A stretch of 64,000 nucleotides of DNA from Chloroflexota bacterium. Lineage in GTDB: Bacteria; Chloroflexota; Anaerolineae; Anaerolineales; Villigracilaceae. The translations under genes and the position numbers were made by a program. Positions 44,967 to 62,150 of this stretch are shown piece by piece (the stretch's first letter is position 1; each line of letters opens with the position of its first letter). The DNA is taken from the NCBI GenBank assembly GCA_019873655.1, contig JAIOAU010000003.1, forward strand, positions 1-64,000. Reading direction: 5' to 3'. The notes beneath the pieces were generated by a model, which was not told where the DNA came from, did not search any database, and saw nothing but the letters and a program-made list of their open reading frames with translations.

Positions 44967-46160
44967 CTAAATCACCTGCTTCTCCCTCAGCGCCTTCATC
45001 TCCTCTGCCGAGTAGCCCAACGCGGCCAGGATTTCCTCGGTATGCTGGGAAAGGGTCGGCGGCGGGGTCTCGATTTGCGCCGGGGTCTTGGAGAATTTGG
45101 CGGTCAGGTTGAAGAGTTTGATTTTGCCGATGCCGGGCGTCTCGACTTCCTCGAGGACGCGGCGGTGCTGGGCCTGCGGCGAGGTGAGCGCCTCTTCCAG
45201 GCTCAGCACGTCGCCGGAGGGGATGCCCTTGGCGTTCAGGACTTCCACCCAATGAGCGGTGGTCTCCTGGGTCAGTTTCTCCTCCAGCAGCGGGGTCAGC
45301 AGGAAGCGGTTGGCCTTGCGGGTGTCGCGCTCCTGGAAGCGCGGGTCGGTCTTGAGGTGCGAGAGTCCCAGGGCGTCGGCCAGGTTCTCCCACTGCTCCT
45401 GCTGGTTGGCGGCGATGTTAATGTAGCCATCCTTGGTGCGGAACATGCCGGACGGCGCGGCGGTGAAGTTGTCGTTGCCCAGCAGGACGGGCTGCTGCCC
45501 GCCGATGAGCAGGTTGGCGGCCACCCAGCCCATGAGCGGCATGATGGAGTCGAGCAGGGCGATGTCAATGAACTGGCCCTCGCCGGTGCGCTCGCGGTAA
45601 TAGAGGGCCGCCATAATGGCAAAGGCGGCGTTCAGCCCGCCGACCGTGTCGCAGACCGGGAAGCCGCAGCGCAGCGGATTGAGGCGCTCGTCGCCGTTGA
45701 TGGACATCACGCCCGACAGGCCCTGGATGATCTGGTCATAGGCCGGCTTGAAGGCGTCCGGGCCGGTCTGGCCGAAGCCGGAGATGGCGCAGTAGATGAT
45801 GCGCGGGTTCAGGCGCGCCAGTTCCTCGTAGGGGAAGCCCAGCCGCGCCAGCACGCCGGGGCGGAAGTTCTCCACCAGCACGTCGGCAGTCTCGACCAGT
45901 TTGCGGAAGATTTCCTTGCCCTCCTCCGCCTTGAGATTGAGCGTCATGGATTTCTTGTTGGCGTTCTGGGCCAGGAAACTGGTGCCCATCAGTTCTTTGT
46001 TGTACTTCGGCACATTGCCGAGTTTGCGGGCCAGGTCGCCGCCATCGGGATTTTCGATTTTGATGACCTCCGCCCCCAGCAGGGCCAGGTGCAGCGTGGC
46101 AAACGGCCCGGAGAGGACGTTGGTCATGTCTAGAACGCGGATTCCTTCGAGTAGTTTCAT
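44967..46160 (-). CDS. CaiB/BaiF family (class III) CoA-transferase
   Basis: The 397-aa protein begins 'MKLLEGIRVLDMTNVLSGPF' and has 'GAEVIKIENPDGGD', the catalytic Asp context 'VENFRPGVLARLG' and 'GYINIAANQQEQWENL', all typical of class III CoA-transferases. These move CoA between carboxylic acids, often succinyl-CoA to a dicarboxylate such as malate, mesaconate or citramalate. GGAGGAGG precedes ATG 46160. Its position between an HMGL-like lyase and LeuCD suggests it activates a dicarboxylate in the same pathway. Confidence 0.88.
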   Translation of the reverse strand: MKLLEGIRVLDMTNVLSGPFATLHLALLGAEVIKIENPDGGDLARKLGNVPKYNKELMGTSFLAQNANKKSMTLNLKAEEGKEIFRKLVETADVLVENFRPGVLARLGFPYEELARLNPRIIYCAISGFGQTGPDAFKPAYDQIIQGLSGVMSINGDERLNPLRCGFPVCDTVGGLNAAFAIMAALYYRERTGEGQFIDIALLDSIMPLMGWVAANLLIGGQQPVLLGNDNFTAAPSGMFRTKDGYINIAANQQEQWENLADALGLSHLKTDPRFQERDTRKANRFLLTPLLEEKLTQETTAHWVEVLNAKGIPSGDVLSLEEALTSPQAQHRRVLEEVETPGIGKIKLFNLTAKFSKTPAQIETPPPTLSQHTEEILAALGYSAEEMKALREKQVI

Positions 46161-46193
46161 CGTCAACCTCCTCCGCCGCGAAGTTGCCAGGTC

Positions 46194-46220
46194 GTAGGTC
46201 GGATTGGCAATCCGACCTAC
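46194..46220. repeat. REP-like palindrome in the CoA-transferase/lyase gap
   Basis: GTAGGTCGGATT (46194-46205) pairs with AATCCGACCTAC (46209-46220). A diverged relative (GTAGGGCGGATTGACAATC on the minus strand) is at 53937-53955. Confidence 0.75.
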
Positions 46221-46254
46221 GTGAGGCGACACGAACTCTTCGCGGTCAATTCTC

Positions 46255-47172
46255 TCAATCAGATTTGCCCTGAAAATCCACAATCGAACCGGATTTCAGG
46301 ATGAAGCCCGGCAGTTCGCGCCCGAAGAAGGCGCTGACCTGACGGGCGACGTCGAGCAGCACATCCAGGCGGATGTCCTTGCGCAGGCCCATGCGCTGGA
46401 AGGTATGCACCAGGTCTTCGGTGCTGACGTTGCCGGCCGGCAGTTTGGTGAACGGGCAGCCGCCCAGTCCGCCGAAGGCCGACTCGAAGTAGGTCACGCC
46501 GCTCTTGAGGGCCGCGTAACAGTTCGCCAGCCCCAGGCCGTAGGTGTTGTGGAAGTGGCAGGCCAGTTCCACCTGCGGGTCGAGGCGGCGAATCTCGCCG
46601 TACAAATCCTCGACCTGGGCCGGTTGGGCGTGACCGGCGGTATCGGCCAGGCTGATGTTGCGGATGCCGGCGTCCAGGTAGGCTTTGACGATATCCAGCA
46701 CCTTGGCGGCCGGAATCGGCCCCTCGAATCCGCAGCCGAAGGCCGACTGCACCGAAGCCTGCACCTTCTTGCCGGCGGCCAGCGCCTGCTTCGCCATCGG
46801 GATGATGCGCGCCTGCGCCTCGGCCGGGGTCATGCCGGTGTTCTTCTGGCTGTGGGTCTCGCTGGCCGAGACGCCCATGCAGAACATCTCCACGCCGCAA
46901 GCCAGACCGCGCTCCAGCCCCTTTTCGTTCAGGACCAGGCCGGAGAGGGTGACGTGGGCGGGTTTCCTGGCGGCGAAATGCCGGAAGAGGGCGTCGGTGT
47001 CGGCCATCTGCGGGACCTTCTCCGGGTTGACGAACGAGCCGAGTTGGATGATGTCCACGCCCGAGGCAAACAGCCCCTCGATCCAGCGGATCTTCTCCTC
47101 CAGCGGGACGGTCGTCTTCTCCGCCTGCAGCCCGTCGCGCGGGCCGACTTCGTGAATGTAAAGTTTGTCCAT
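46255..47172 (-). CDS. HMG-CoA lyase-like aldolase
   Basis: The 305-aa product has 'EVGPRDGLQAEKTTVP' at the N-terminus (metal-binding Asp), 'SASETHSQKN', 'CGFEGPIPAAKV' and 'CHFHNTYGLGLANCYAAL' with the metal His pair, plus the Cys-containing 'GLGGCPFTKLPAGNVSTED' loop of true HMG-CoA lyases. It cleaves 3-hydroxy-3-methylglutaryl-CoA to acetyl-CoA and acetoacetate, or a related 3-hydroxy-3-carboxyacyl-CoA. No leucine-degradation carboxylase is near, leaving the related substrates open. Confidence 0.87.
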   Translation of the reverse strand: MDKLYIHEVGPRDGLQAEKTTVPLEEKIRWIEGLFASGVDIIQLGSFVNPEKVPQMADTDALFRHFAARKPAHVTLSGLVLNEKGLERGLACGVEMFCMGVSASETHSQKNTGMTPAEAQARIIPMAKQALAAGKKVQASVQSAFGCGFEGPIPAAKVLDIVKAYLDAGIRNISLADTAGHAQPAQVEDLYGEIRRLDPQVELACHFHNTYGLGLANCYAALKSGVTYFESAFGGLGGCPFTKLPAGNVSTEDLVHTFQRMGLRKDIRLDVLLDVARQVSAFFGRELPGFILKSGSIVDFQGKSD

Positions 47173-47194
47173 AGAAACATCTCATGTGTTCTTG

Positions 47195-47238
47195 CAAGGC
47201 GTCCTGAGCGGAGCGCAGCGAAGTCGAAGGACGCCTTG
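47195..47238. repeat. REP-like element with GAGCGAAGTCGAAGG-type core
   Basis: CAAGGCGTCCT (47195-47205) pairs with AGGACGCCTTG (47228-47238). The loop holds GAGCGGAGCGCAGCGAAGTC, a sequence type found as dispersed repeats in many bacterial genomes. Confidence 0.7.
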
Positions 47239-47252
47239 TAATGACCATTCGC

Positions 47253-48371
47253 TTACAAATGAGCCGCGATGGCCTCGCCCATCTCCAGGGTCGAGTTCGA
47301 GCCGCCCATGTCGTAGGTGCGGACCTTGCCTTCCTTGATGACCTCAGCGACGGCCCTCTCCACCGCGGCGGCCTTTTCGGTCTCGCCCAGGAAGTCGAGC
47401 ATCATCTTGGCCGAGAGGATGGTGGCGATCGGGTTGACCTTGTACTGCCCGGCGTACTTGGGGGCCGAGCCGTGGCTGGGCTCAAAGACGCCCAGTTTCT
47501 CGCCGATGTTGCCCGAGCAGCCGAAGCCCAGGCCGCCCACCAACTGCGCCCCCAGGTCCGAGATGATGTCGCCGAACATGTTGGTCGCCACCATTACGTC
47601 GTAGTTCTTCGGGTTCTTGAGCAGCCACATGCAGATGGCGTCCACGTTGGCGTCGTCCATCTCGATTTCCGGGTAATCCTTGTGGACTTCCTTGGCGATG
47701 TCGAGGAACATGCCCTCGGTGGCGCGTACCACGTTGGCCTTGTGGATAATGGTCACCTTCTTGCGGCCGTACTTACGGGCATACTCGAAAGCGGCGCGGA
47801 TGATGCGCTCCGAGCCTTTGCGGGTGACCACCTTGCAGGAGATGGCATATTGGTCGAGCGGCAGGTCCTTGAAGACGCCAAACGGCTTGGAGAGTTGCCC
47901 CAGCGTGGCGGCCAGTTCCTGCGGGACGGGGCTGAATTCCACCCCGGCGTACAGGTCTTCGGTGTTCTCGCGGAACACGACCACATCTACATCATCCTTG
48001 TAGTTGAGCGGGTTGCCAGGATAGGCCTTGCAGGGGCGCAGGCAGATGTACAAATCGAACATCTGGCGCATGCGCACGATGGGTGAGCGGTAGACCAGCC
48101 CCTTGCCTTGCAACTCGGGAATCAGTTCTTCCTCCGCCGCCTTGACCGGCTTGGAGGTGATGGCGCCGAACATGGCCGCGTCCACGCTCTTGAGCAGGTC
48201 AATCGTGCGCTGGGGCAGAGCGTCGCCTTCGGTGCGCCAGAATTCCCAGCCGATGTCGCCGTGAATGTACTCGGCATTCAGGTTCAATTTGTCCAGCACA
48301 ATTTTGGTGGCATCCAGGACGTCCACCCCGATGCCGTCGCCAGGCAGCCAGGCAATCCTGTACTTTTTCAT
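47253..48371 (-). CDS. Isocitrate/isopropylmalate dehydrogenase family protein
   Basis: A 372-aa beta-decarboxylating dehydrogenase. '[11 protein letters not shown]' is the N-terminal signature. '[20 protein letters not shown]' and '[14 protein letters not shown]' hold substrate-binding Arg residues, '[12 protein letters not shown]' the catalytic Lys region, and '[13 protein letters not shown]' the cofactor end. The Ser/Leu pattern does not clearly choose between isocitrate, homoisocitrate, isopropylmalate or tartrate. It is the first gene of the five-gene operon and has its own promoter. Confidence 0.85.
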
Positions 48372-48416
48372 GGTCTCTCCTCGTTTGGTGAAATGAAGGG
48401 GATGAAATGTGAGATA

Positions 48417-48445
48417 ATTTTATAGAAAATCTCGCCGCTGCACAA
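48417..48445 (-). promoter_or_regulatory. Promoter of the dehydrogenase-lyase-CoA-transferase-LeuCD operon
   Basis: Minus-strand TTGTGC (48440-48445), 17 bp, TAAAAT (48417-48422); the GAGGAGAGA ribosome binding site follows before ATG 48371. Confidence 0.55.
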
Positions 48446-48509
48446 TGAACTTTTTCCAGTTTTTGAACAGGATGTTCATCACTGTCTTGTCTGACAAAAG
48501 GAAAACCCG

Positions 48510-48929
48510 ATGCCCGTCAAAACGATGACCCTCTCTCTCGCCACGCGCGGCCACACCGACATCCACGACCTGACCGGCGACCTGGCGCGCTGCCTGGCCG
48601 ACTCGGGCCTGACCTCCGGCCTGCTGACCGTCTTCTGCCCGTCCTCCACCAGCGGGGTGACGACAGTCGAATACGAGCCGGGGGCGGTCTCCGACCTCAA
48701 GCGCATGTTCGAGGAACTCGTCCCCTCCGGCCGCGACTACGCCCACAACGCCACCTGGGACGACGGCAACGGCCACTCGCACATGCGCGCCTCGCTGCTC
48801 GGCCCCTCGCTGACCATCCCCTTTGTCGAGAAACGGCTGACGCTCGGCACCTGGCAGCAGGTCATCTACGTGGACTTCGACATCCGCCCGCGGCGGCGCG
48901 AATTGATTGTGCAGATCATCGGGGAATGA
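48510..48929 (+). CDS. YjbQ/UPF0047 family protein
   Basis: The 139-aa protein has the whole family signature: 'LLTVFCPSSTSGVTTVEYEP' near residues 38-57, 'DYAHNATWDDGNGHSHMRAS' near 75-94, and 'LGTWQQVIYVDFDIRPRRRE' near the end. The conserved His, Asp and Asn residues form a metal/phosphate site; some members show thiamine-phosphate-synthase activity. It is divergent from the dehydrogenase operon and ends 1 bp from the converging ABC ATPase gene. Confidence 0.93.
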   Translation: MPVKTMTLSLATRGHTDIHDLTGDLARCLADSGLTSGLLTVFCPSSTSGVTTVEYEPGAVSDLKRMFEELVPSGRDYAHNATWDDGNGHSHMRASLLGPSLTIPFVEKRLTLGTWQQVIYVDFDIRPRRRELIVQIIGE

Positions 48930-48930
48930 A

Positions 48931-49839
48931 TCAGCGCGCCAGCGCCAGGAAGACGTCCTCGAGGGTCGGCTCGCCGCGTTCCAGGCGCGGCGCGGTCAGA
49001 CCTCGCGCCTGCGCCGCCCGCCGGAGCGACTCGGCCCCCAGGCCGCGCCGCGCAATCACCCGCAGGTGGTCGCCGCTCAGGCCGACGCGCAGCACCCCGT
49101 CCGCCTCGCGCAGCGCCTCCAGCCCGGCTTCCAGCGGCTGGATGTGCGCCTCCCACACCTCGCCGGGGATGACCGAGGCCTTCAGCGCGGCGGGCGTGTC
49201 CATTGCCAGCAGTTGACCGTCGCGCATGACGCCCACGCGGCCGCAGTATTCGGCCTCGTCCATGTAGTGGGTGGTGACCAGCACGGTGACCCCCTCCCCG
49301 GCCAGTCCATAAATCAAATCCCAAAAGGCGCGGCGGGCGGTCGGGTCCACGCCGGAGGTGGGTTCGTCGAGAAACAGGAGTTTGGGCCGATGCACGAGCG
49401 CAATCGCCAGCGCCAGCCGCTGACGGAAGCCGGCCGCCAGGTCACGCGTCAGGTCGCGCTCGCGGCCGCGCAGGCCGACCAGGTCGAGGGTCTCGTCCAG
49501 GCGGCGGCGCTCACGCAGACCGTAGACCCCGCCGTAGAAGGTCAGATTTTCCAGCACGGTCAGGTCATCGTAGAGGGCGAATTTCTGCGACATGTAACCG
49601 GCGCGGGCGCGCACGTCCTCCGACTGGCGGAAGGCGTCGAAACCCAGCACCGTGGCGCGGCCCTCGCTCGGTTCCAGCAGTCCCAGCAGCATGCGGATGG
49701 TGGTGGTCTTGCCGCAGCCGTTCGGGCCGAGGTAGCCGACGATTTCGCCTGCCCGGACGGAGAAGGTCACGTGGTCCACGGCGGTGAAGTCGCCAAAACG
49801 GCGGGTGAGATTTTCGGCGGCGATTACAGTTTCGGTCAT
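48931..49839 (-). CDS. ABC transporter ATP-binding protein (exporter ATPase 2)
   Basis: A 302-aa ATPase with Walker A 'GPNGCGKTTT' near residue 37, Walker B 'LLFLDEPTSGVDP', and H-loop 'VTTHYMDEAEYCG'. The C-loop reads 'DLAAGFRQRLALA' instead of LSGGQ, a degeneracy known in asymmetric exporter ATPase pairs. A C-terminal 80-residue extension ends 'PTLEDVFLALAR', as in the first ATPase. It most likely pairs with the other ATPase and the single permease of this operon (YbhF-like halves). Start chosen at ATG 49839; GGAA upstream is weak. Confidence 0.9.
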   Translation of the reverse strand: MTETVIAAENLTRRFGDFTAVDHVTFSVRAGEIVGYLGPNGCGKTTTIRMLLGLLEPSEGRATVLGFDAFRQSEDVRARAGYMSQKFALYDDLTVLENLTFYGGVYGLRERRRLDETLDLVGLRGRERDLTRDLAAGFRQRLALAIALVHRPKLLFLDEPTSGVDPTARRAFWDLIYGLAGEGVTVLVTTHYMDEAEYCGRVGVMRDGQLLAMDTPAALKASVIPGEVWEAHIQPLEAGLEALREADGVLRVGLSGDHLRVIARRGLGAESLRRAAQARGLTAPRLERGEPTLEDVFLALAR

Positions 49840-49848
49840 GTTACGTTT

Positions 49849-49901
49849 CCAGGTTAGCACGTTAGAACGTTGAAACGTTGGAACGTGTCAACGTTCTAAC
49901 G
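49849..49901. repeat. Octanucleotide repeat between the two ATPase genes
   Basis: On the minus strand five tandem ACGTTNNA-type units (ACGTTGAC, ACGTTCCA, ACGTTTCA, ACGTTCTA, ACGTGCTA) fill the gap. CGTTAGAACGTTG (49860-49872) is also the perfect inverse of 49889-49901. The stop TGA (49888-49890) of the upstream ATPase lies in the first unit. Confidence 0.85.
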
Positions 49902-50802
49902 AAAGGAAGACATCCTCCAGCGTCGGCGGGATGAGACGCGCCTCGAGCGGCGAACCGGCGCGGGCGGGGAAAGCGTCCGACAGCGCAGCGATAACGGACT
50001 CAGCCATCCCTGGCGCGACGCGCAGGTGCAGTTTGTCGCCAAACGGGCGGACATCCTCCACGCCCTCGATTTCGGCCGCCCGGCGGCGCAGTTCGGGGAG
50101 CGGGCCGCCGCGCGCTTCGAGGATGCGTCCCTGCAGGGCGGCGCGCAGGTCAGAGGGACGGCCCTCGGCCAGAATCCGCCCGCCGCGCATGAAACCGACG
50201 CGGTGACAGCGGGAGGCCTCGTCCATGTAGGGGGTGGTCAGGAGGACGGCCACGTCCCTGGCGGCGGCGATGCGGATGAGCAGTTGCCAGAAGTCCTGGC
50301 GGGTGACCGGGTCCACGCCGGTGGTCGGCTCGTCGAGCAGGAGGACTTTGGGGCGGGTGACGAGGGCAGAGGCCAGGCCGAGTTTCTGCTTCATGCCGCC
50401 GGAAAGTTGACCGGCGCGGCGTTCCTTGAAAGCGGAGAGGCCGACGAAGTCGAGGATGTCGAGGCAGCGCGGCAGCCATTCGTCGCGCTTCAGGCCGCGC
50501 AGTTCGGCGAAGAAGCGGATGTTCTCCAGCACGGTCAGGTCTTCGTAGAGCGAGAAGCGCTGGGAAAGGTAGCCGATTTGCGCCCGCGCCTGCTCGCCCT
50601 GCCGCCGGACGTCGTAGCCGCAGATGGAAATTTCGCCGGCGTCCGCCTTGAGCGCGCCGACCAGCAGGCGGAGGGTGGTGGTTTTGCCCGCGCCGTCCGA
50701 GCCGACGAGGCCGTAGATTTCGCCCGCTGCGACCGACAGACTCACATCCTGGACAGCGTGGATGGAGCCGAAAGATTTGGAGAGGTGGGAGGCTTGAATC
50801 AT
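49888..50802 (-). CDS. ABC transporter ATP-binding protein (exporter ATPase 1)
   Basis: A 304-aa ATPase with Walker A 'GSDGAGKTTT' near residue 34, canonical signature 'GQLSGGMKQKLGLA', Walker B 'VLLLDEPTTGVDP' and a switch region 'LTTPYMDEASRC' in which the usual His is replaced by Pro (TTPY instead of TTHY). The tail ends 'PTLEDVFLSLER'. The two ATPases are thus complementary: this one has the good signature but no switch His, the other the reverse. The last codons lie in an ACGTT repeat. Confidence 0.9.
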   Translation of the reverse strand: MIQASHLSKSFGSIHAVQDVSLSVAAGEIYGLVGSDGAGKTTTLRLLVGALKADAGEISICGYDVRRQGEQARAQIGYLSQRFSLYEDLTVLENIRFFAELRGLKRDEWLPRCLDILDFVGLSAFKERRAGQLSGGMKQKLGLASALVTRPKVLLLDEPTTGVDPVTRQDFWQLLIRIAAARDVAVLLTTPYMDEASRCHRVGFMRGGRILAEGRPSDLRAALQGRILEARGGPLPELRRRAAEIEGVEDVRPFGDKLHLRVAPGMAESVIAALSDAFPARAGSPLEARLIPPTLEDVFLSLER

Positions 50803-50907
50803 GTCGAAGGTCGGAGGTCGAAGGTCGAAGGTTGGAGGTCGAAGGTCGGAGGTCGGAGGTCGAAAGTCAGAGGTCGAAGGTCAGAAGTCGAAGGTCAGAG
50901 GTCGGTG
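50803..50907. repeat. Fifteen-unit heptanucleotide array between the four-helix gene and ATPase 1
   Basis: Fifteen tandem 7-bp units of consensus GTCGAAG/GTCGGAG (some GTCAGAG) start directly before the ATPase start codon (50800-50802) and run into the end of the four-helix gene, whose TGA stop (50895-50897) is part of the repeat. The same heptad occurs at 51320-51347 and 63794-63821. Confidence 0.92.
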
Positions 50908-51311
50908 TGATAATCGGCCTGGTCTTCGGCAATGCGGCGAGGGCGGGGATTGGCTTCGAGGTACTTGATAAAATTGGCGATTTGACGGGCGCATTTTTCG
51001 GCCAGGGCGTAAGTTTCTTGAAACTGGGCTTCGCTGATGTAATTTTGGTCGAGGGCGGCGTAGAGTTGCGCCCGCACTTCGCCAGCGGAGGCCTTTGCCA
51101 TGCCCAGAAAGTTGATGAACTGCGAGTCTGTGCGGCTTTCGAAGCCCTCGGCAATGTTGCTCATGATGGAAATGGCCGCCCGCCGAATCTGGTCGCGCAG
51201 GCCGAAGTCCCGGCTGAATGCTTGTTGACCGGTCAGGCTGTACACATTCTTGGTCAATTCACGCGCCGCCTGCCAGGCCTGAATTTCCTCGAAACGAGCA
51301 ATTGCTGTCAT
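50895..51311 (-). CDS. Four-helix bundle protein (23S rRNA intervening-sequence protein family)
   Basis: The 138-aa protein has the family hallmarks 'FEEIQAWQAARELTKNVY', 'LRDQIRRAAISIMSNIAEGF' (near residues 38-57) and 'INFLGMAKASAGEVRAQLYA'. These small helical proteins form pentamers and are often found as single genes or next to group II/other mobile sequences; their cellular role is unclear. It sits within an exporter operon. A second member lies at 61151. The last three residues come from the flanking heptad array. Confidence 0.9.
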   Translation of the reverse strand: MTAIARFEEIQAWQAARELTKNVYSLTGQQAFSRDFGLRDQIRRAAISIMSNIAEGFESRTDSQFINFLGMAKASAGEVRAQLYAALDQNYISEAQFQETYALAEKCARQIANFIKYLEANPRPRRIAEDQADYHTDL

Positions 51312-51319
51312 TCTTACCT

Positions 51320-51347
51320 CCTCAACCTACGACTTTCGACTTGTGAC
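51320..51347. repeat. Heptanucleotide repeat between HlyD and the four-helix gene
   Basis: Minus-strand units GTCACAA, GTCGAAA, GTCGTAG, GTTGAGG follow the TAA stop of the HlyD gene directly; the last merges into the ribosome binding site. Confidence 0.75.
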
Positions 51348-52667
51348 TTAACGAAACGTAACATCCGCTGGCATTCCAGGCTTCAACTTCCCTGCGGGGT
51401 CCTGGACGCGCAGCCGGACGGCGTAGACGGTGCTGGAGCGGCCCTCGACCGTCTGGACGTTGCGCGGGGTGAATTCGGCCTGGTCGGCGATGTGGACGAT
51501 GACGGCATCGAAGGTCTCGCCGGGGAAGGAGTCGACCGTCACGCTGGCGGCCTGGCCGAGGGAAAGTTGGCCGTAGCGGTCTTCGGGGACGTAGACGGTG
51601 ATGGTCAGGTCGTCGAGGCGGCCGAGTTTGAGCGCCGCCGCGCCCGGGGAAACCACCTCGCCGGGCTGGATGCTGCGGGTCAGAATCACGCCGTCGGCGG
51701 GGGCGGAGACGGTCAGTTTGGCGATTTGGGCGTCCACCAGGGCCAGGGCGGCCTCGGCCTGGGCGACGGCCAGTTGCGCCTGTCCGGCGGCGGCCTCGGC
51801 CTGACGGACGGCGGCCTGGGCGGCGGCGAGACGCGGCGAGTACAGTCCGGTCTGCAGGAGAAGCAGGCGGTCTTGCGCCGATTGATAACGTTCCTCGGCC
51901 ACGGTCAGGGCGGCGCGGGCTTCGAGGACGGCGCGGGCGGCGTCGCTGTCTTTCAGGTCGTCGTAGGCGGCCTGGGCGTCGTCCAGTTCGGCGCGGGCGT
52001 CATCGTAGGCGCTTTGGGCGGCGTCGCGCAGGTCGGCGTTGGGCGAGAGGGCGGCGCGGCGGAGGACATCCTGGGCGGCGGCAAACGCAGCGCGCGCCTG
52101 GAGCAGACGCGCCTCGGCGGCGGCGAAGTCGGCGGCTTCGGGCGCGGCCAGAGCCGAGTCGAGCGTCCCCTGCGCTGTGTCGCGCGCCTGAGCGGCAGAC
52201 TCGACTTCGGCCTGCGCGGCGGCAATTTCATCGGCCTGGGAGATGGACGCCGCGAAGGGATTGCTCCAGTCTGAAGTGCGGCTGGCGGCCGCCTCGGCGC
52301 GGACGGCGTTGAGCGTCAGGTCATAGTTGGCGCGCGCTGTTTGAAGGGCGGCGTCGGCCGTTTCGGCGGCGGCCCGCGCCAGGTCGAGGTTGGCGGCGGC
52401 GACGGCGCGCTGCGCCTGCAGGAGGGTATCGTCCAGCCGGAAGAGCGGGTCGCCGGCGCGGACGGTCTGCCCCTCGTCCACATAGACTTCGGCGACCCGT
52501 CCGCCGATTTCGGGCGAGATGACGACCGTCACAGCCTCGATGGTGCCGGAGGCGGTCAGCGCGCCGTCCGGTTTGTCCGAGAGGCTGCGGATGAGAAAAT
52601 AGCCGCCGATAATGACGAGCAGGGCGAGCAGGACGATGACGGGAATGGGAGGGCGTTTATGGGACAT
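51348..52667 (-). CDS. HlyD-type membrane fusion (adaptor) protein
   Basis: A 439-aa protein with a short cytoplasmic N-terminus and one membrane helix ('VIVLLALLVIIGGYFLIRSL', about residues 10-30). A split lipoyl domain has 'GTIEAVTVVISPEIGGRVAE' and 'TVSAPADGVILTRSIQPGEV'. An unusually long Ala-rich coiled coil spans about 80-315. A beta-barrel part ends 'YAVRLRVQDPAGKLKPGMPADVTFR'. It connects the ABC exporter to the outer layers of the envelope. AGGAG precedes ATG 52667. Confidence 0.92.
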   Translation of the reverse strand: MSHKRPPIPVIVLLALLVIIGGYFLIRSLSDKPDGALTASGTIEAVTVVISPEIGGRVAEVYVDEGQTVRAGDPLFRLDDTLLQAQRAVAAANLDLARAAAETADAALQTARANYDLTLNAVRAEAAASRTSDWSNPFAASISQADEIAAAQAEVESAAQARDTAQGTLDSALAAPEAADFAAAEARLLQARAAFAAAQDVLRRAALSPNADLRDAAQSAYDDARAELDDAQAAYDDLKDSDAARAVLEARAALTVAEERYQSAQDRLLLLQTGLYSPRLAAAQAAVRQAEAAAGQAQLAVAQAEAALALVDAQIAKLTVSAPADGVILTRSIQPGEVVSPGAAALKLGRLDDLTITVYVPEDRYGQLSLGQAASVTVDSFPGETFDAVIVHIADQAEFTPRNVQTVEGRSSTVYAVRLRVQDPAGKLKPGMPADVTFR

Positions 52668-52679
52668 GGTCAACTCCTA

Positions 52680-52721
52680 AAAATCCAAAATCTCAAATCG
52701 TCAATCGAAAATCGTCAATCC
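52680..52721. repeat. Heptanucleotide repeat between the permease and HlyD genes
   Basis: Six minus-strand units GGATTGA, CGATTTT, CGATTGA, CGATTTG, AGATTTT, GGATTTT. The first contains the TGA stop (52715-52717) of the permease gene. Confidence 0.85.
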
Positions 52722-53842
52722 AATCGTTTGCGGAAGCGCAGGGCGGCCGCGCCCAAGATGAGCAAGCCGAAGACGGCCAGCGCCAGCGTCTCGGGCCAGA
52801 TGGCCGCCAGGCCGACGCCTTTGATGAGCAGGGCGCGGATGATGACCAGGTAGTAACGCAGCGGGACGATGTAGGAAATCCATTGCAGGACCTGGGGCAT
52901 GGCCTCCAGCGGGAAGAAGAAACCGGAGAGGAAGATGCTTGGCAGGAGCGTCATCCAGACCGTCAGCATGGCCTCCTGCTGGGTGTTGGCGATGGTCGAG
53001 GCGAAGAGGCCGATGCCCAGGCCGGAGAGCAGCAACAGACCGGAGCAGGCCAGGATGAGGGTCAGGTCGCCGCGCACCGGCACGCCGAACCACCAGTGAC
53101 CGATGGCCATCACCTCGAGCGTGTCCACGAAGGCCAGCAGGACGTAGGGGATGATTTTGCCGACCACCAGTTCCCAGGGGCGGATGGGAGTGACGATGAG
53201 TTGTTCGATGGTGCCGCGCTCGCGCTCGCGGACGATGGCTGAGGCGGTCAGGACGGCGGTGACCGCATAGAGAATCATGCCGATGACGCCCGGAATCATG
53301 AAGTGGGAACTGACCAGGTCGGGGTTGTACCAGACGCGCGTGCGCACTTCGAGCGGCGGCTGCAGGCGGCTGATGTCCACGCCGCTGCGCTCCAGTTTTT
53401 CGAACATCAACGCGGTGGCATGCTGCTGGCCCACCAGCGTGGCGGAAGCCAGGGTAGTCGAACCGGCGGTGGCATCCGAGCCGTCCAAGATAAACGCCAC
53501 CTGCGCCTCGCCGCGCGCCAGGGCCGTGTTGTAGTCGGGCGGGATGAGGATGCCGGCGCGGGCGTCGCCGCGCTCGATGAGGGCGCGCAGTTCCGCTTCC
53601 GATTGCACACTGTAGGCCAGGCGGAAGTAATCGGCGGCGCGGTAGGCGTCCAGCAGGGCGCGGCTTTCGGCGCAGCGACACTGGTCGAGGACGGCCAGCG
53701 GCACGTTGCGGATGTCGGTGGTGGCCGAGTAGCCCATCAGGAACAGTTGCATGATGGGGATGACCAGGATGATGACCAGCGTGCGCCGGTCGCGGGTGAT
53801 CTGGATGAATTCCTTGCGGATGATGGAGAGGAGGCGATTCAT
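52715..53842 (-). CDS. ABC-2 type exporter permease (YbhS/YbhR-like)
   Basis: The 375-aa protein has an N-terminal helix ('RTLVIILVIPIMQLFLMGYS', about residues 20-40), a large extracytoplasmic loop (about 45-170), then five further helices. It carries the family signature 'AIVRERERGTIEQLIVTPIRP' near 210-230 and 'LSGFFFPLEAMPQVLQWISY' near 300. Related YbhFSR systems use two permeases; only one is encoded here, so it may form a homodimer. It follows the TetR gene and begins the structural part of the operon. Confidence 0.9.
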   Translation of the reverse strand: MNRLLSIIRKEFIQITRDRRTLVIILVIPIMQLFLMGYSATTDIRNVPLAVLDQCRCAESRALLDAYRAADYFRLAYSVQSEAELRALIERGDARAGILIPPDYNTALARGEAQVAFILDGSDATAGSTTLASATLVGQQHATALMFEKLERSGVDISRLQPPLEVRTRVWYNPDLVSSHFMIPGVIGMILYAVTAVLTASAIVRERERGTIEQLIVTPIRPWELVVGKIIPYVLLAFVDTLEVMAIGHWWFGVPVRGDLTLILACSGLLLLSGLGIGLFASTIANTQQEAMLTVWMTLLPSIFLSGFFFPLEAMPQVLQWISYIVPLRYYLVIIRALLIKGVGLAAIWPETLALAVFGLLILGAAALRFRKRLD

Positions 53843-53844
53843 GG

Positions 53845-53890
53845 GCAGGTAGATGTTGAGGTAGACAGGTAGCAGGTAGACAGGTAGAGG
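53845..53890. repeat. CAGGTAG-type repeat between tetR and the permease
   Basis: Tandem degenerate units CAGGTAG, TGAGGTAG, ACAGGTAG, CAGGTAG, ACAGGTAG (7-8 bp) start 3 bp from the permease start codon. Confidence 0.7.
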
Positions 53891-53936
53891 ATGGTGGAAT
53901 GCAGATGAGGAAACGCGGATTGTGGCTTGCGGGCAA

Positions 53937-53955
53937 GATTGTCAATCCGCCCTAC
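53937..53955. repeat. REP-like fragment forming the end of tetR
   Basis: Minus-strand GTAGGGCGGATTGACAATC resembles the palindrome at 46194-46220; the TGA stop of tetR (53942-53944) and its last codons lie in it. Confidence 0.55.
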
Positions 53956-54574
53956 GATTGAGAGTCTCTTGGGAGGGCGGCTTCAAGACGCCGTGCAGGA
54001 AGATTTCCACGAAATGCTCGAGGGCGTCGGGCTGTGTGACGGCAAACGGCGTGCCGGCGATCATCAACTCGGTCATGTAGTAGGAGAAGAACAAACCGAG
54101 GAAGGCGCGGAAGAGGACGGCTGGCGGGATGTCGCGCAGGAGCCCTTGTTGCGCATTGAACTTTTGAATGATGGGCAACACTTCCGGCAGGATGTGTTGC
54201 ACAATCTTCGGCATGTTGCGCCCATTGAATTCCACAATCTCGATGAACATCAGTTTGATGAAATCGGGGCGGCGGCCCAGTTCCGCCACCATTGCCTGCG
54301 CAGCAGTTCGGACGAAGGTCTCCGGGTCCTCGGCGGACGTCTCGCGCAGGATGGGCAGCACCTGGCGGTAGGGATGGCGGTCGAGGATGAGTTCGGCGAA
54401 AATGGCTTCTTTGTTGGGAAAATGATTGTAAATTCCGCCCAGCGCCAGGCCGGCGCGTTCGGCGATCTGGCGCATCGAAGTCGCCGCGTAGCCCTGTTCG
54501 AGGAACAGTTCATAGGCGGCTTCGAGAATCGCCCGGCGGGTGCGCTCGCCCTTCGGCAGGGAAGATTCATCCAT
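53942..54574 (-). CDS. TetR family regulator of the exporter operon
   Basis: A 210-aa regulator with the N-terminal TetR HTH ('RRAILEAAYELFLEQGYAAT', 'SMRQIAERAGLALGGIYNHF', 'NKEAIFAEL') and a helical ligand domain. As first gene of the operon and with an inverted repeat overlapping its promoter it is very likely autoregulated and relieved by an efflux substrate. The arrangement TetR-HlyD-ABC recalls E. coli cecR-ybhGFSR. The stop codon comes from a REP-like repeat. Confidence 0.93.
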   Translation of the reverse strand: MDESSLPKGERTRRAILEAAYELFLEQGYAATSMRQIAERAGLALGGIYNHFPNKEAIFAELILDRHPYRQVLPILRETSAEDPETFVRTAAQAMVAELGRRPDFIKLMFIEIVEFNGRNMPKIVQHILPEVLPIIQKFNAQQGLLRDIPPAVLFRAFLGLFFSYYMTELMIAGTPFAVTQPDALEHFVEIFLHGVLKPPSQETLNRRAD

Positions 54575-54594
54575 AATCCGTCCTCTTTAGAAAT

Positions 54595-54610
54595 GAATGA
54601 ACGTTCGTTT
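54595..54610. promoter_or_regulatory. TetR-type operator
   Basis: GAATGAACGTTCGTTT is an almost perfect 16-bp palindrome centred on ACGT, placed just downstream of the tetR -10 and between the divergent tetR and MFS genes. Confidence 0.75.
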
Positions 54611-54612
54611 TT

Positions 54613-54640
54613 ATTCTATCACACCCAATGCGACTGTCAA
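54613..54640 (-). promoter_or_regulatory. Promoter of the tetR-exporter operon
   Basis: Minus-strand TTGACA (54635-54640), 16-bp spacer, TAGAAT (54613-54618). The operator (54595-54610) begins 2 bp past the -10, covering the start site. Confidence 0.82.
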
Positions 54641-54665
54641 GGTCTGCCCGCTTCCTCGAAAGTGG

Positions 54666-54671
54666 TAGAAT
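54666..54671 (+). promoter_or_regulatory. -10 element upstream of the MFS gene
   Basis: TAGAAT ends 7 nt before the GTG at 54679, with no ribosome binding site between; leaderless start suspected. Confidence 0.45.
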
Positions 54672-54678
54672 AGGCGGC

Positions 54679-55953
54679 GTGTCCGAACTTCAACATGCCA
54701 TCCAAAAAAATCTAAAACACAATCTCCTGGTCAACCTGCTCGACGGCGCTTTCTTCGGCCTGGGCTGGGGCTTCGGCTCGCTGGGCACCATCGTGCCGCT
54801 GCTGGTGGCGCGCATGACCGACTCGGCCCTCCTGATCGGCCTGATCCCGGCCATCCACGGCGTGGCCTGGCAACTGCCGCAGTTATTCATGGCCAACGTC
54901 ACCGCCCGCCGGCGGGTCTACAAACCGCTGGTGATGTGGATCACCGTCCACGAGCGCGTCCCCTACCTCGGTCTGGCGTTGGTGGGAATCTTCATGGCCG
55001 CCCTGGGCAACCGCCTGGCCCTGATTCTGACCTTCGCCCTGATTCTCTGGCAGGGACTAGGGGCCGGCTTCACCGCCAACCCCTGGCAGAGCATGGTCGC
55101 CAAGATCATCCCCTCCGACTGGCGCGGCACCTTCTTCGGCGTCCAGGCCAGCCTGGCCAACGTGCTGATGAGCGCCGCCGCCATCGCGGCCGGTTATCTG
55201 TTGGACACCGTCAGCGACCGCTGGGACTTTGCCCTCTGTTTTCTGCTGACTCTCGTGGGCATGGGCCTCTCGTTTCTCTTTCTGGGCCTGACGCGCGAAC
55301 CGGAGGACACAGAGAAGTCGATTCCCGAAAAACAGCCCCTGCCCTGGCGCGAGTGGCTGGATGTGCTGCGCCGCGACCGAAATTTCAGCGCCTTCCTGGT
55401 GGTCCGTTTCCTCTCCAGTTTTGCCACCATGGGCTTCGCCTTCTACATCGTCTATGGCCTGCGCCGCTTCGGGATGGACGAGGTCACCGCCGGCTTCCTG
55501 ACCGCCGCCCTGACCATCACCCAGACGGTCGCCAACGGCGTCATGGGCTGGCTGGGCGACCGCGTCGGCCACCGCGCCATGCTCATCGTCGGCTCGCTGG
55601 CCGTGACGCTCAGTTCGCTGATGGCCTGGGGCGGCCCGACTCTCGCCTGGCTGTACCCGGTCTTCATCCTGGCCGGGCTGGCGAACGTGGCTTACTGGAC
55701 GATTGGCATGGTCATCACCACACAGTTCGGCACGGAGGAGACGCGCCCAACCTACATCGGCCTGTCGAACACGCTGGTCGCACCAGCCACCATCCTCGCT
55801 CCCCTCCTGGGCGGCTGGATCGCCGACGCGGTCAGTTTCCAGGCTACGTTCATGATTTCGGCCATCGGCGGCCTCGTCATCGCCGCGATGCTCTACTTCC
55901 TGGTGCGCGACCCGCGCCATGCCGCCTCGGCCCAACCCGCCGAGACAAAATGA
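54679..55953 (+). CDS. MFS transporter
   Basis: The 424-aa protein has about 12 hydrophobic segments. It includes 'HNLLVNLLDGAFFGLGWGFG' at the N-terminus, 'ANPWQSMVAKIIPSDWRGTFFGVQASLANV' between helices 4 and 5, and the repeated loop 'GWLGDRVGHRAMLIVGSL' between helices 8 and 9. It is probably a drug or metabolite exporter; substrate unknown. GTG 54679 is taken as the start since ATG candidates are far inside. It is divergent from tetR and could be under the same regulator. Confidence 0.87.
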   Translation: MSELQHAIQKNLKHNLLVNLLDGAFFGLGWGFGSLGTIVPLLVARMTDSALLIGLIPAIHGVAWQLPQLFMANVTARRRVYKPLVMWITVHERVPYLGLALVGIFMAALGNRLALILTFALILWQGLGAGFTANPWQSMVAKIIPSDWRGTFFGVQASLANVLMSAAAIAAGYLLDTVSDRWDFALCFLLTLVGMGLSFLFLGLTREPEDTEKSIPEKQPLPWREWLDVLRRDRNFSAFLVVRFLSSFATMGFAFYIVYGLRRFGMDEVTAGFLTAALTITQTVANGVMGWLGDRVGHRAMLIVGSLAVTLSSLMAWGGPTLAWLYPVFILAGLANVAYWTIGMVITTQFGTEETRPTYIGLSNTLVAPATILAPLLGGWIADAVSFQATFMISAIGGLVIAAMLYFLVRDPRHAASAQPAETK

Positions 55954-56013
55954 GCCTCAACGCTCACAGAAGCAATTCAGATGTTTGCAGAACGCTGAAA
56001 CAGGTCTCTTTTT

Positions 56014-56068
56014 GCATCGAATGGCGCGAACTTCACAAAAAGGTTGGTCTCATTCGCAAATTCGATGC
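56014..56068. other. Inverted repeat between converging genes
   Basis: GCATCGAAT (56014-56022) pairs with ATTCGATGC (56060-56068) around a 37-nt loop. The gap 55954-56095 has no gene. Confidence 0.45.
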
Positions 56069-56095
56069 TTTCACTGAAGACCGACTTTGCCAGAA

Positions 56096-56608
56096 TCAGG
56101 TCGGCGTTTGGCGCGTCAGCCAGTAGCGCAATTCCAGGTGGACCGGATAGAGCGGCAGCAGGTCGGCGCGGTATTTCTTGCCGGCGTATCGTTGCATCAA
56201 ATCGCGCGCCTGGCGCAGCATCTGGCGGTCCCAGCCCAGCGGCAGCGACAGGATCTCGGCCATCCTTCCCTTTGCGGCTTTGCCGGTCGCCTCGCAATAG
56301 AAGACAAAACCGGCCTGCCAGGCCTCCAACTCCCCATAGACCGACAGCGCCGTCAGCCAGCCCTGGCGCAGGTGAACCGCCTCGTGAACGGCCAGACTGA
56401 GCAACCAGGGATGGTCGGACGGCGTCCGATCGGGAGGATAGAGCCGCGAGTTGAAATAGATGTTGCCGCACAGCGTCCAGACCGCCCCGGTCGCCGGCCC
56501 CAGTTTACGAAAACCGAGACGCGCGCCCCGGGCGCGCAGGAAAGCCGCCGTCGTCCGGCCGGTTTCGTTGACGCTTTCCAGGCGGAGGAGAAATTCTTCG
56601 AAATCCAT
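56096..56608 (-). CDS. HExxH-containing protein, putative zinc peptidase
   Basis: The 170-aa protein starts at ATG 56608 ('MDFEEFLLRLESV'). 'LAVHEAVHLRQGW' gives His75, Glu76 and His79 as a gluzincin-like zinc site; a third ligand may be Glu in 'YGELEAWQAG' near residue 93, a spacing known in small metalloproteins of this type. It has no signal peptide. I do not recognise the family. It is divergent from the thiolase gene. Confidence 0.65.
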   Translation of the reverse strand: MDFEEFLLRLESVNETGRTTAAFLRARGARLGFRKLGPATGAVWTLCGNIYFNSRLYPPDRTPSDHPWLLSLAVHEAVHLRQGWLTALSVYGELEAWQAGFVFYCEATGKAAKGRMAEILSLPLGWDRQMLRQARDLMQRYAGKKYRADLLPLYPVHLELRYWLTRQTPT

Positions 56609-56671
56609 TCCTGATAGCAGTTGAGAGTCGCCGCAACTACAATAAACACAGTATACAACAAAGAGGTCTTT

Positions 56672-57820
56672 ATGCGACAAGTAGCCATCCTCGGAATCGG
56701 CCAGACTGTGATAGACGAGCACTGGGACAAATCGCTGCGCGACCTGACAGTCGAGGCCGCCCTGGCCGCCCTGCAGGACGCCGGACGCGAAACCGCCGGC
56801 GGTGTGTTCGTCGGCAACATGATGTCGGGCATCATCAACGACCAGAACAACCTCGGCCCGCTGGTCGCCGACTGGACCGGTCTGCGCGGTGGCGACGCGG
56901 TCAAGATCGACGCCGCCTGCGGCTCGGGCGCGGCGGCGCTGCGCTCCGGGTTGATGGCTGTCGCTTCCGGCGAACTGGACTCGGCGCTGGTGATCGGCGT
57001 CGAAAAGATGACCGACCGCCCGATGCGCGAGGTCACCGCCGCCCTGGCCACCGCCGCCGACGCCGATTACGAGGTCGAGATGGGCGTCTCCTTCGTCGGC
57101 CTGAACGCCCTCATCATGCGCCGCTACATGTACGAGTACGGCTGGCAGCATGAAGACTTCGCGCCCTTCGCCATCAACGCCCACGCCAACGCCCTGCACA
57201 ATCCCTACGCCCGCCTGCATCAGAAAATCACCGTCGAAGACTTCGAAAAATCGGTCATGGTGGCCACCCCCATCAACCTGCTGGATGCCTCGCCGATTGG
57301 CGACGGCGCGGCCGCCCTGTACCTCGTCCCTGCCGACAGCCTGCGCGGCGGGACCCGCATCCTGGTCGCCGCCTCCGCCGCCGCCACCGACACGATCGGC
57401 GGCCACGACCGCCCCGACATGCTCTTCCTGACCGCGGCCTACAAATCCTGTCGAGAAGCCTACCGGCAGGCGGGCGTCGGCCCGGAAGACATCGACGTCT
57501 TCGAACTGCACGACGCCTTCACCATCATGTCGGCGCTCTCGCTGGAGGCGTGCGGATTCGCCGAGCGCGGCCGCGGCGTCCGCCTCGGCCTGGACGGCGA
57601 AATCGGCCCGACCGGGCGCATCCCGATCACCACCCGCGGCGGGCTGAAGGCGCGCGGCCACCCCGTCGGCGCGACCGGCGTCTATCAGGTGGTCGAGGTC
57701 GTCCAGCAGTTGCGCGGCGAGTGCGGCCCCACCCAGGTCCCGGACGCCCGCGTCGGCATGGCCCAAAACATCGGCGGCAGCGGCGCGACCATCATCACCC
57801 ACATCTTGAAACGGGAATGA
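56672..57820 (+). CDS. Thiolase family protein (SCP-x/archaeal acetoacetyl-CoA thiolase type)
   Basis: The 382-aa protein starts at ATG 56672 after AGAGG. It has the nucleophilic Cys in 'IDAACGSGAAAL' near residue 87, 'VGVEKMTD', 'DVFELHDAFTIM' and 'GLKARGHPVGATGVYQVVE' (His of the GHPVGAT motif), ending 'AQNIGGSGATIITHIL'. It may condense acetyl-CoA or cleave 3-ketoacyl-CoA. The usual partners in this class (HMG-CoA synthase, DUF35 OB-fold protein) are not adjacent. An HMG-CoA-lyase-like gene lies at 46255. Confidence 0.87.
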   Translation: MRQVAILGIGQTVIDEHWDKSLRDLTVEAALAALQDAGRETAGGVFVGNMMSGIINDQNNLGPLVADWTGLRGGDAVKIDAACGSGAAALRSGLMAVASGELDSALVIGVEKMTDRPMREVTAALATAADADYEVEMGVSFVGLNALIMRRYMYEYGWQHEDFAPFAINAHANALHNPYARLHQKITVEDFEKSVMVATPINLLDASPIGDGAAALYLVPADSLRGGTRILVAASAAATDTIGGHDRPDMLFLTAAYKSCREAYRQAGVGPEDIDVFELHDAFTIMSALSLEACGFAERGRGVRLGLDGEIGPTGRIPITTRGGLKARGHPVGATGVYQVVEVVQQLRGECGPTQVPDARVGMAQNIGGSGATIITHILKRE

Positions 57821-57826
57821 AGACAC

Positions 57827-57862
57827 AGAGACCCGGCCTCTCCCAGAGACCGGGTCTCTTTT
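57827..57862 (+). terminator. Terminator after the thiolase gene
   Basis: AGAGACCCGG (57827-57836) pairs with CCGGGTCTCT (57850-57859), followed by TTTATAAC. Confidence 0.75.
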
Positions 57863-61090: not shown

Positions 61091-61150
61091 TTGGAGGGTC
61101 CTGAGGGGTCTGAGGGGATGAGGGTCTGAAGGGATGATGTTTCTGAGGGA
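61091..61150. repeat. Octanucleotide repeat between the four-helix gene and hydA
   Basis: On the minus strand units of about 8 bp (CATCCCTT, CAGACCCT, CATCCCCT, CAGACCCC) fill the gap right after the four-helix stop codon. Confidence 0.7.
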
Positions 61151-61540
61151 TTAAGGTTTCTTGCGGGCGTTGTGTTCAATGGAGGCTTTGAGGCGGGAGA
61201 GGAGATAGCCGGTCTCGCGGGCCAAATCGGCAATTTGGGCGTAGTCGGCGTCAGCAAGATAACCCAGGTCGTGGGCAAGTTCAAGATGATACTCGGTCTC
61301 GGCCAGGGAGCCGACTGCGATATGTAAATGCCGAAGGTAGTTGGCAGAACTGCCGAGGGCGTATCCCTCGGCGATATTCGCCCCGACCGAGGCGGCCGAG
61401 CGGCGAATCTGACTGGTCAAGCCAAAAAGTTCGTGTTTGGGAAATTTTTCACTGACTTTATAAACAGCGAGCGTCATCGCATGAGCGCGCTTCCAGACCA
61501 GCAACTTGCGGAAAGCCTTTTCCTCCCTCCCCTCACTCAT
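61151..61540 (-). CDS. Four-helix bundle protein, second copy
   Basis: A 129-aa relative of the protein at 50895 with 'LLVWKRAHAMTLAVYKVSEK', 'LTSQIRRSAASVGANIAEGY' and 'RHLHIAVGSLAETEYHLELA'. The two copies are clearly diverged. It overlaps the stop of the upstream unknown gene by 8 bp; GGGAGGGAAGAGAG precedes the ATG. Its 3' flank, like that of the other copy, is a short tandem repeat array. Confidence 0.9.
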   Translation of the reverse strand: MSEGREEKAFRKLLVWKRAHAMTLAVYKVSEKFPKHELFGLTSQIRRSAASVGANIAEGYALGSSANYLRHLHIAVGSLAETEYHLELAHDLGYLADADYAQIADLARETGYLLSRLKASIEHNARKKP

Positions 61541-62150
61541 CTCTCTTCCCTCCCTCAAAAGCCTCGTTGCCATCAGAAACCTCATCCCCTTTAGAGACCT
61601 CGTCCCCCTTCGAAATCTCCCGAATCCCCAACAACGCCGCCAGCACATCCGGCGGAATGTCCTCTTCCGGCAAATCCGTTTTGTACCCTTGCGATTGCTC
61701 CGCGCGCTCTCGCAAGGAACGCCACAAGAATTGCCGTTCGTCGCTCCGGATGACCAGATCGTTGAGCGTCTGGGCATTGAGCAGGTACTCACCGGTGGTG
61801 TAGAGGAAGGTCAGCCGCCGCCACCGATCGGCCAGGATGGGGCGCGGCAGGCGTTCCAGCGCGCCGAGTTGAATCTTGAAATATTCCTCGCGCGCCCGCG
61901 GATGATTCGGCTCGTCGCGCAGGAGTTCGGCGCGGGTGGTCAGTTCATGGCCCCTGACCTCGGCGACGTACTCGATGCGCCCGCCGCGCTCGCCGAAACT
62001 GCCGGGCTGGTAGAAAGCCAGGTAGTCCACGGCGATCACCTTCGGCGCGGTGCGGAAGGGGATGCGATACCAGCCCAAGAGCCGGGCAATCTCCAGATCG
62101 CGCGGCGAGGGCAGGAGACAGACGAGGACGAGGGAGGAGGAAGATAACAT
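61533..62150 (-). CDS. Conserved protein of unknown function next to the R-M genes
   Basis: The 205-aa product has a compact N-terminal 150 residues with 'LLGWYRIPFRTAPKVIAVDY', 'GRIEYVAEVRGHELTTRAEL' and 'ITFLYTTGEYLL'-like strands ('LTFLYTTGEYLLNAQT'), then a low-complexity acidic tail with repeated 'SKGDEV' units. No membrane helix or catalytic motif was recognised. It overlaps the REase stop by one base (TGATG), so it is translated as part of the R-M operon; a nuclease-related or effector role is possible but not shown. Confidence 0.6.
   Translation of the reverse strand: MLSSSSLVLVCLLPSPRDLEIARLLGWYRIPFRTAPKVIAVDYLAFYQPGSFGERGGRIEYVAEVRGHELTTRAELLRDEPNHPRAREEYFKIQLGALERLPRPILADRWRRLTFLYTTGEYLLNAQTLNDLVIRSDERQFLWRSLRERAEQSQGYKTDLPEEDIPPDVLAALLGIREISKGDEVSKGDEVSDGNEAFEGGKRDE

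Follow-up and report, generated by a model that had tools for sequence, protein, structure and literature searches.

Short tandem arrays in an Anaerolineales operon as probable arms of small S23 gene cassettes

Results

Arrays and genes of the operon

The stretch of DNA analysed here, called the window, comprises the first 64,000 nucleotides of contig JAIOAU010000003.1 of a Chloroflexota bacterium (assembly GCA_019873655.1; Anaerolineales, Villigracilaceae). Its minus strand carries an operon in the order TetR regulator, ABC-2 permease, HlyD protein, a small gene of the S23 family and two ABC ATPases, and our subject is the short tandem arrays between these genes, which are probably arms, or solitary copies of arms, of small cassettes built around S23 genes. 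An earlier note, made from the letters of the window, had reported arrays of 7-8 bp units in all five gaps and had noted that in three of them the first unit contains the stop codon of the preceding gene. Both observations are borne out: each gap holds an array, one of them (51320-51347) weak with about three degenerate units, and in three gaps the array begins 7, 9 and 10 nt before the gap. The operon-wide pattern is real and extends across the genome, but the note missed its key, the four-helix gene of the operon, which has two of the five arrays as its inverted arms (Table 1).

Tandem Repeats Finder (TRF; score at least 30) calls four operon arrays, at 53859-53888, 52688-52720, 50803-50905 (14.7 copies of 7) and 49853-49895. 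The weak array was missed by TRF and by our own detector, and on direct reading consists of loose units. The downstream arm of the operon S23 gene runs from inside the S23 stop region up to the start codon of the next gene, and the inverted score of the two arms is 16 with 150-nt flanks and 22 with 220-nt flanks. No Rfam match at E values up to 1 was found in positions 44000-64000.

S23 genes between mirrored arms

A cassette is an S23 gene with a heptamer array on either side; the two arrays share one unit family, mirror each other and have their C-poor strand running 5' to 3' toward the gene. Nine PF05635 matches were found in the genome of the window (G000), and seven are framed by one-family arrays in mirror orientation (score at least 15), against 0.67 expected from mismatched arm pairs. 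The same score is reached by 6 of 385 non-S23 genes of this genome, one of which adjoins the S23 gene L078. L078 itself (contig C3, 78.3 kb) has an upstream array and no downstream arm, and L081 has no arms and a PF05635 score under the family cut-off. The inverted score is a local alignment score whose threshold of 15 was picked after the data had been seen; thresholds of 13, 17 and 20 agree.

This arrangement recurs in other genomes. Inverted arms occur at 22 of 29 loci in relatives (1.7 expected from mismatched pairs; 5 direct), 25 of 34 in Nostocales (5.3 expected likewise; 7 direct), 19 of 30 in Flavobacteriaceae (3.0; 5 direct) and 66 of 109 on genome contigs from many phyla and contigs from a virus database (4.3 expected; 18 direct), the last of which may include host DNA. 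With identical genes removed, 136 of 205 loci have inverted arms, and 35 of 205 reach 15 in direct orientation. The loci came from relatives (29, one per genome, from 33 S23-bearing relatives in which further S23 places exist), Nostocales (34), Flavobacteriaceae (30), genome contigs (80 of 587 confirmed), the virus database (30) and the genome of the window (9), 212 in total; 206 remained without identical genes and 205 after L267 was removed for its short flank. Loci L302, L303, L305-L307, L309-L311, L315-L317 and all plasmid loci were left out of the arm counts. Pairs were seen under the labels Chloroflexota, Planctomycetota, Bacteroidota, Acidobacteria, Poribacteria, Verrucomicrobia, Methylobacillus, Thiohalocapsa, deltaproteobacteria, WOR-3, Gracilibacteria and Cyanobacteria; isolated loci with scores of about 15, among them that of Verrucomicrobia, could be chance matches.

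Among the 136 inverted loci, period 7 is the commonest (67 arms upstream and 68 downstream), followed by period 14 (18 and 17), and at a lower threshold no array was detected for 18 upstream and 24 downstream arms. The downstream arm starts within 10 nt past the S23 stop in 77 of the 136 and overlaps that stop in 44. The arms consist of heptamers in tandem, for the most part with one strand poor in C; a few units, such as AACGTT, are palindromic. Their orientation is fixed: on the arm strand directed toward the gene, G exceeds C at 120 loci, the reverse holds at 14 and the skew is zero at 2 (p 3.5e-22), and a GC-skew control on genes of the window's genome centres near 0 (-0.03 upstream).

The unit varies from one S23 locus to the next, and the arms match within the locus. 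Sharing of the unit follows the S23 lineage: protein pairs with at least 80% identity share it in 17 of 17 cases, those at 65-80% in 53% of 51, those at 55-65% in 13%, those at 35-55% in 2% and those at 20-35% in 6% (large bins sampled at 250 pairs). Across seven genera the orthologous operon site has changing unit families, with both arms matching each other every time: GTCGAAG in the window, GTTGAAG/GTCGAAG in L063, CACGTT in L053 and L056, AACGTT in L062 and L069, and GTTGNCC in L060. In this comparison 6 of 17 operon loci had the S23 gene.

Table 1. Genes, arms and solitary arrays of the window, with the evidence for each
Feature	Position	Strand	Evidence and remarks
TetR regulator, operon gene 1	53942..54574	-	PF00440
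ABC-2 permease	52715..53842	-	PF12698
HlyD-type membrane fusion protein	51348..52667	-	PF16576, PF13437; start from our own gene caller
S23 / 23S_rRNA_IVP four-helix-bundle gene, 138 aa; cassette core between HlyD and first ATPase gene	50895..51311	-	PF05635, E 2.6e-33; PDB relatives 2gsc, 2rld
ABC ATPase 1	49888..50802	-	PF00005
ABC ATPase 2	48931..49839	-	PF00005; start from our own gene caller
Upstream arm of operon S23 gene, about three degenerate units (AGTCACAAGTCGAAAGTCGTAGG), ending 8 nt ahead of S23 start	51320..51347	-	Direct reading; arm comparison; missed by TRF
Downstream arm of operon S23 gene, about 15 units CTTCGACC in S23 sense, reverse complement of upstream arm	50803..50905	-	TRF; arm comparison
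Solo array CAGGTAG/CTACCTG, TetR-permease gap	53859..53887	.	TRF; family match to array upstream of S23 gene L078
Solo array CGATTNN/AATCG, permease-HlyD gap, from inside permease stop region	52681..52723	.	Family match to arms of S23 gene L079 (contig C27)
Solo array ACGTTNNA, ATPase-ATPase gap	49850..49894	.	Matches orthologous S23 arms in relatives L053, L056, L069; no own S23 arm
Second S23 gene of window	61151..61540	-	PF05635, 122 bits
Upstream arm of second S23 gene (GATGAGG-like)	61551..61616	-	Inverted score 24
Downstream arm of second S23 gene (CCTCATC/CCCCTCAG-like), from stop codon on	61091..61150	-	TRF; arm comparison

Solitary arrays and their S23 partners

The three operon arrays that are not S23 arms can each be placed in a family of S23 arms. 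The CAGGTAG array matches that of L078 and the AATCG array matches the arms of L079. The ACGTT array has no matching arm in its own genome, scores 18, 15, 23 and 13 against the orthologous S23 arms of L053, L056, L069 and L062, and also matches 3 of 135 other arm pairs. All five operon arrays can thus be assigned to unit families that occur next to S23 genes. Across the genome, 21 of 48 solo arrays match S23-side arrays of that genome (score 14), compared with 2-15 for arm sets taken from elsewhere. For most solo arrays the gap contains no inverted partner, and both orientations are found.

Further solo arrays of the window, with units CACTGAA and TAGTCTGA, lie at 12768-12800, 19061-19079 and 6175-6210; the GACTATC/TAGTCTGA family recurs in the genome and matches no S23 arm there. 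At L013 (G000, C3:78323-80042) a gene resembling, by eye, ornithine carbamoyltransferase lies between two inverted arrays of CAGGTAG type, the inner of which is the array upstream of L078, so that a host gene is framed by arms.

Arrays across the genome

The genome was sampled over 464 kb (the window and 20 further stretches) of its 3.04 Mb in 45 contigs, with 394 genes called by our own caller. Gap arrays of periods 7, 8, 14 and 15 number 3, 8, 5 and 10, which is more than chance gives (five dinucleotide shuffles held 0 on average); the coding sequences (390 kb) hold 6, 0, 1 and 8. Units are drawn from a limited set and recur in either orientation, and a second cluster of arrays lies at 29-45 kb of contig C1. 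A detected array is present in 24 of 138 codirectional gaps of 20-150 nt, and at this rate at least four detected arrays in five gaps have a probability of 0.004 for one given operon; the cluster is therefore notable, but not extraordinary in a whole genome.

The special association with stop codons that the note proposed does not hold. Of 36 arrays, 11 start at or within the stop region of the preceding gene; 16 of the 36 start no more than 15 nt past the stop, where random placement in these gaps would give 17.8, and targeting of stop codons was rejected on these start positions. Because short gaps alone give such placement, and because solo arrays run in both orientations to transcription, the arrays are not a stop-codon device. 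Nor are heptamer arrays as such confined to heterocystous cyanobacteria: they are in print for Beggiatoaceae (TAACTGA; PMC4679880) and Xanthomonas (GGGNATC, with 70 converging pairs in Xanthomonas campestris; PMC4692102).

Relatives with and without S23 genes

We read the operon in 20 relatives (two loci were without gap lines and one was miscalled), and among the loci listed the orthologous gaps hold different units or none. The TetR and permease genes overlap by 4 nt in L053 (G008), L066, L068 and L070 and are separated by long arrays in L058, L063 (G004) and L065; the two ATPase genes overlap by 4 nt in L064, L067 and L070 and have arrays between them in L053, L054, L063 and L065. Of two genomes of the same genus as the window's, G001 has a TetR-permease unit other than that of the window and a permease-HlyD unit of the window's family, and G002 has short, array-free TetR-permease and permease-HlyD junctions, with other genes between HlyD and the ATPases. 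Arrays have thus entered packed junctions and turned over there. Cassettes and solo arms sit between codirectional operon genes that are tightly packed in relatives without them.

Stand-alone S23 genes (PF05635) were counted in 34 of 41 genomes, those of the window's bacterium and 40 relatives. A census of arrays with periods 7, 8, 13, 14 and 16, in up to two 20-kb stretches for each of the 40 relatives, found 1 array in 249,626 bases of the 7 S23-free genomes and 94 in 1,215,038 bases of the 33 with S23 (p 4e-7); any array at all was found in 1 of 7 and 25 of 33 genomes, respectively (Fisher p 0.004), the genomes being related and neither p value free of phylogeny. Shuffled versions of all these samples gave 4 arrays. 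G002 has neither S23 genes nor arrays, and three genomes of that genus agree. Most arrays of the relatives are solo, with only 4 of 95 lying 400 nt or less from an S23 gene. In Nostocales the unit GGGGANT was seen in 15 of 43 S23-bearing genomes and in 2 of 17 S23-free ones (Fisher p 0.11, not significant), and a single unit of the short tandemly repeated repetitive (STRR) class was rejected as a test of S23 dependence there.

A number of S23 reading frames in Nostocales are partial or contain stops, as expected of decaying copies. On G057:C2 and G091:C1, pairs of equal-scoring S23 matches lie at distant places of one genome and may be recent copies.

Sites with and without the gene

Three pairs of cyanobacterial sites differ in the presence of the gene. 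On a plasmid of Picosynechococcus PCC 7003 an S23 gene lies between cas10 and cmr3, which in pAQ6 of PCC 7002 have no S23 gene and a gap of 12 nt between them; by eye, the PCC 7003 array starts within the last codons of cas10, much like the arrays of the window. Pseudanabaena galeata CCNP1313 has a plasmid-borne S23 gene between cas6 and cas4, where ABRG5-3 has a 36-nt gap with, by eye, a small array of another unit. Anabaena sp. 90 has the gene at cas6-cas4, and Dolichospermum UHCC 0315A has 245 nt of other sequence instead.

S23 genes lie in CRISPR-Cas operons of cyanobacterial plasmids at L382, L383 and L386, twice at cas6-cas4 of type I-D and once at cas10-cmr3 of type III-B.

Discussion

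We consider it probable that the arrays are arms, plus solitary arm copies, of a family of small S23 cassettes that resembles the REP/RAYT system (repetitive extragenic palindromes and their associated tyrosine transposase) but has no transposase. The window operon is likely to hold one whole cassette and three solo arms. What the data show is the framing of S23 genes by arms, the match of units within a locus, the strand polarity, the tie of unit to S23 lineage, the association of array load with S23 among relatives, and sites that have or lack the gene; how such a cassette might work is inferred from these and can be outlined as follows. The S23 protein would recognise the heptamer strand of its own arms; this recognition may let host replication or repair copy or retain the segment that the arms bound, and slippage could then lengthen the arms. 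Solo arrays would be leftovers of gene loss or non-autonomous copies. Among the roles suggested in the earlier note, that of recombination junctions comes nearest to this scheme. For the S23 gene of the window, Pfam gives PF05635 only and no nuclease, recombinase or reverse transcriptase (RT).

Several observations weigh against this reading. No inverted arms reach score 15 at 69 of the 205 S23 loci, and 27 of the 48 solo arrays of the genome have no S23-side match there. Eight of the 33 S23-bearing relatives show no array in the sampled stretches, array load and S23 density are only loosely correlated (rho 0.38, p 0.016), and the shared ancestry of the compared genomes qualifies the association between the two. 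Two Nostocales genomes without S23 genes have GGGGANT arrays of the STRR class, with 6 and 30 hits, and PMC4692102 describes few paired repeats in Nostoc PCC 7120 and reports no general link to mobile elements. Part of the tie between unit and S23 lineage comes from orthologous positions. Only five of nine plasmid loci (L376, L377, L380, L383 and L386, two of which are one duplicated segment) reach an inverted score of 15 within 150 nt; L378, L379, L381 and L382 fall under it, and in L382 (Pseudanabaena galeata) the inner arrays are direct, an outer upstream array giving the inverted match. No copy of a cassette has been observed to move: L376/L377 and L378/L379 share more than the cassette, and therefore give no evidence of movement. 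Inspection by eye of the three site pairs revealed no evident target-site duplication, and the gene ends differ.

One alternative is ordinary replication slippage in unconstrained gaps, with 7 nt as a length favoured by the polymerase and S23 genes merely tolerating or attracting arrays. Heptamers lead the long simple repeats in most surveyed genomes (Mrazek 2007, via PMC4679880), and both the 11 of 36 arrays that begin at or inside a stop region and the 27 of 48 solos without an S23 partner of their own would fit such an origin. We nevertheless regard it as unlikely, since slippage does not produce matched mirror arms on one gene family (136 of 205 S23 loci, against 6 of 385 other genes) or a constant strand polarity, and does not account for the near-absence of arrays from S23-free relatives. 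Selection for a host role, as G-quadruplexes or regulatory elements, has still less to recommend it and seems quite improbable: heptamers of Nostoc and Xanthomonas form G-quadruplexes in vitro and lie between aligned open reading frames (PMC4692102), but by eye many arms in Anaerolineales and Flavobacteriaceae lack runs of G, and orthologous gaps hold different unit families or none across genera.

The arms could also be kept for pairing in the mRNA; S23 would then occupy the loop of an RNA stem, just as it does in the intervening sequences (IVSs) that RNase III excises from 23S rRNA, and the whole would act as a module at the transcript level. In such IVSs an inverted-repeat stem that RNase III cleaves does enclose S23 (PMC4990558), the predicted fold pairs the window's upstream arm with the first units of the downstream arm, and both arms change together at the orthologous site. 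Mismatches between arms, however, show no preference for G-U pairs on the sense strand (183 sense, 242 antisense), the predicted fold of the window cassette is hardly more stable than chance (z -1.24; 11 of 100 shuffles as good), and most solos are without an inverted partner in the gap and lie in both orientations. We find this explanation doubtful; neither the G-U counts nor the fold stability supports it. Arms might, finally, be telomere-like repeats added by an RT at both 3' ends of a break, with S23 as the partner of the RT. The S23 protein shares its four-helix-bundle fold with Avd, the RT partner in diversity-generating retroelements (DGRs), and both gene-facing 3' strands are C-poor with a period near 7. 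Yet PF00078 was not found in G006, the S23-richest relative (22 S23 genes, 99% complete), nor in G018 or G026, so that an RT as the required maker of arms was rejected and this origin is very improbable. Also unlike DGRs, the S23 gene of the window has no RT beside it (its neighbours are HlyD and an ABC ATPase), and the only PF00078 match of the genome is on contig C14. By eye L081 could pass for a DGR Avd beside an RT, which we do not claim for this locus at a contig edge, with its score below the cut-off and the RT match on another contig.

The S23 cassettes, which we continue to favour, share features with known systems and differ from each of them. As in REP/RAYT, a gene is framed by inverted repeats that are also found solo between genes; here, however, the window gene matches only PF05635 and no Y1 tyrosine transposase, and the repeats are tandem heptamers rather than palindromes. 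A transposase gene, as would mark an insertion sequence or miniature inverted-repeat transposable element, was not found by Pfam in the window cassette. The S23 IVS of 23S rRNA has been described as a selfish element, suspected of being mobile, with an S23 gene between terminal inverted repeats and a patchy presence (PMC4990558). The window locus likewise has a PF05635 protein (E 2.6e-33) and terminal inverted repeats, but lies between protein genes (hlyD and an ATPase gene) instead of in an rRNA helix; its inverted repeats are made of a tandem heptamer that is specific to the locus, and arms are also found alone. With the STRRs and long simple sequence repeats of cyanobacteria, Xanthomonas (GGGNATC; PMC4692102) and Beggiatoaceae (TAACTGA; PMC4679880) this genome shares an enrichment of heptamer tandem arrays in its gaps between genes.

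The new part is the link of heptamer arrays to the arms of S23 genes. We found no paper that ties S23 or four-helix genes to heptamer arrays, judging from listings that lacked most subscription papers and did not include bioRxiv preprints, and the terms S23 and four helix are absent from the accessible text of PMC4679880 and PMC4692102. It is quite possible, although somewhat less likely than not, that S23 proteins in general make and spread C-poor heptamer arrays in a sequence-specific way, and that much of the bacterial heptamer load (cyanobacterial STRRs, the convergent Xanthomonas pairs and TAACTGA in Beggiatoaceae) is the footprint of one selfish system that crosses phyla and moves with no recombinase or RT of its own. 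Heptamer repeats and stand-alone S23 genes, neither of which has a settled role as far as we know, would gain each other as partners, and linking them suggests an origin, open to test, for a class of bacterial repeats that has long lacked an explanation. If true, it would describe a mobile-like cassette with no known enzyme of mobility and would explain why repeats differ from gap to gap within operons.

Other repeats

A class of repeats with period 9 (TTCGTGTAA, ATCTGTGTA and CACAAAGGA) scores below 14 against all S23-side arrays of the window's genome and occurs there at C4:13221-13402, C4:17060-17108, C4:21563-21710, C5:16183-16668 and C1:29072-29115. The window itself also contains a tandem array of a 22-bp unit, AGACTCGTTGGCAAACATGTTA, with 5.7 copies at 704-830.

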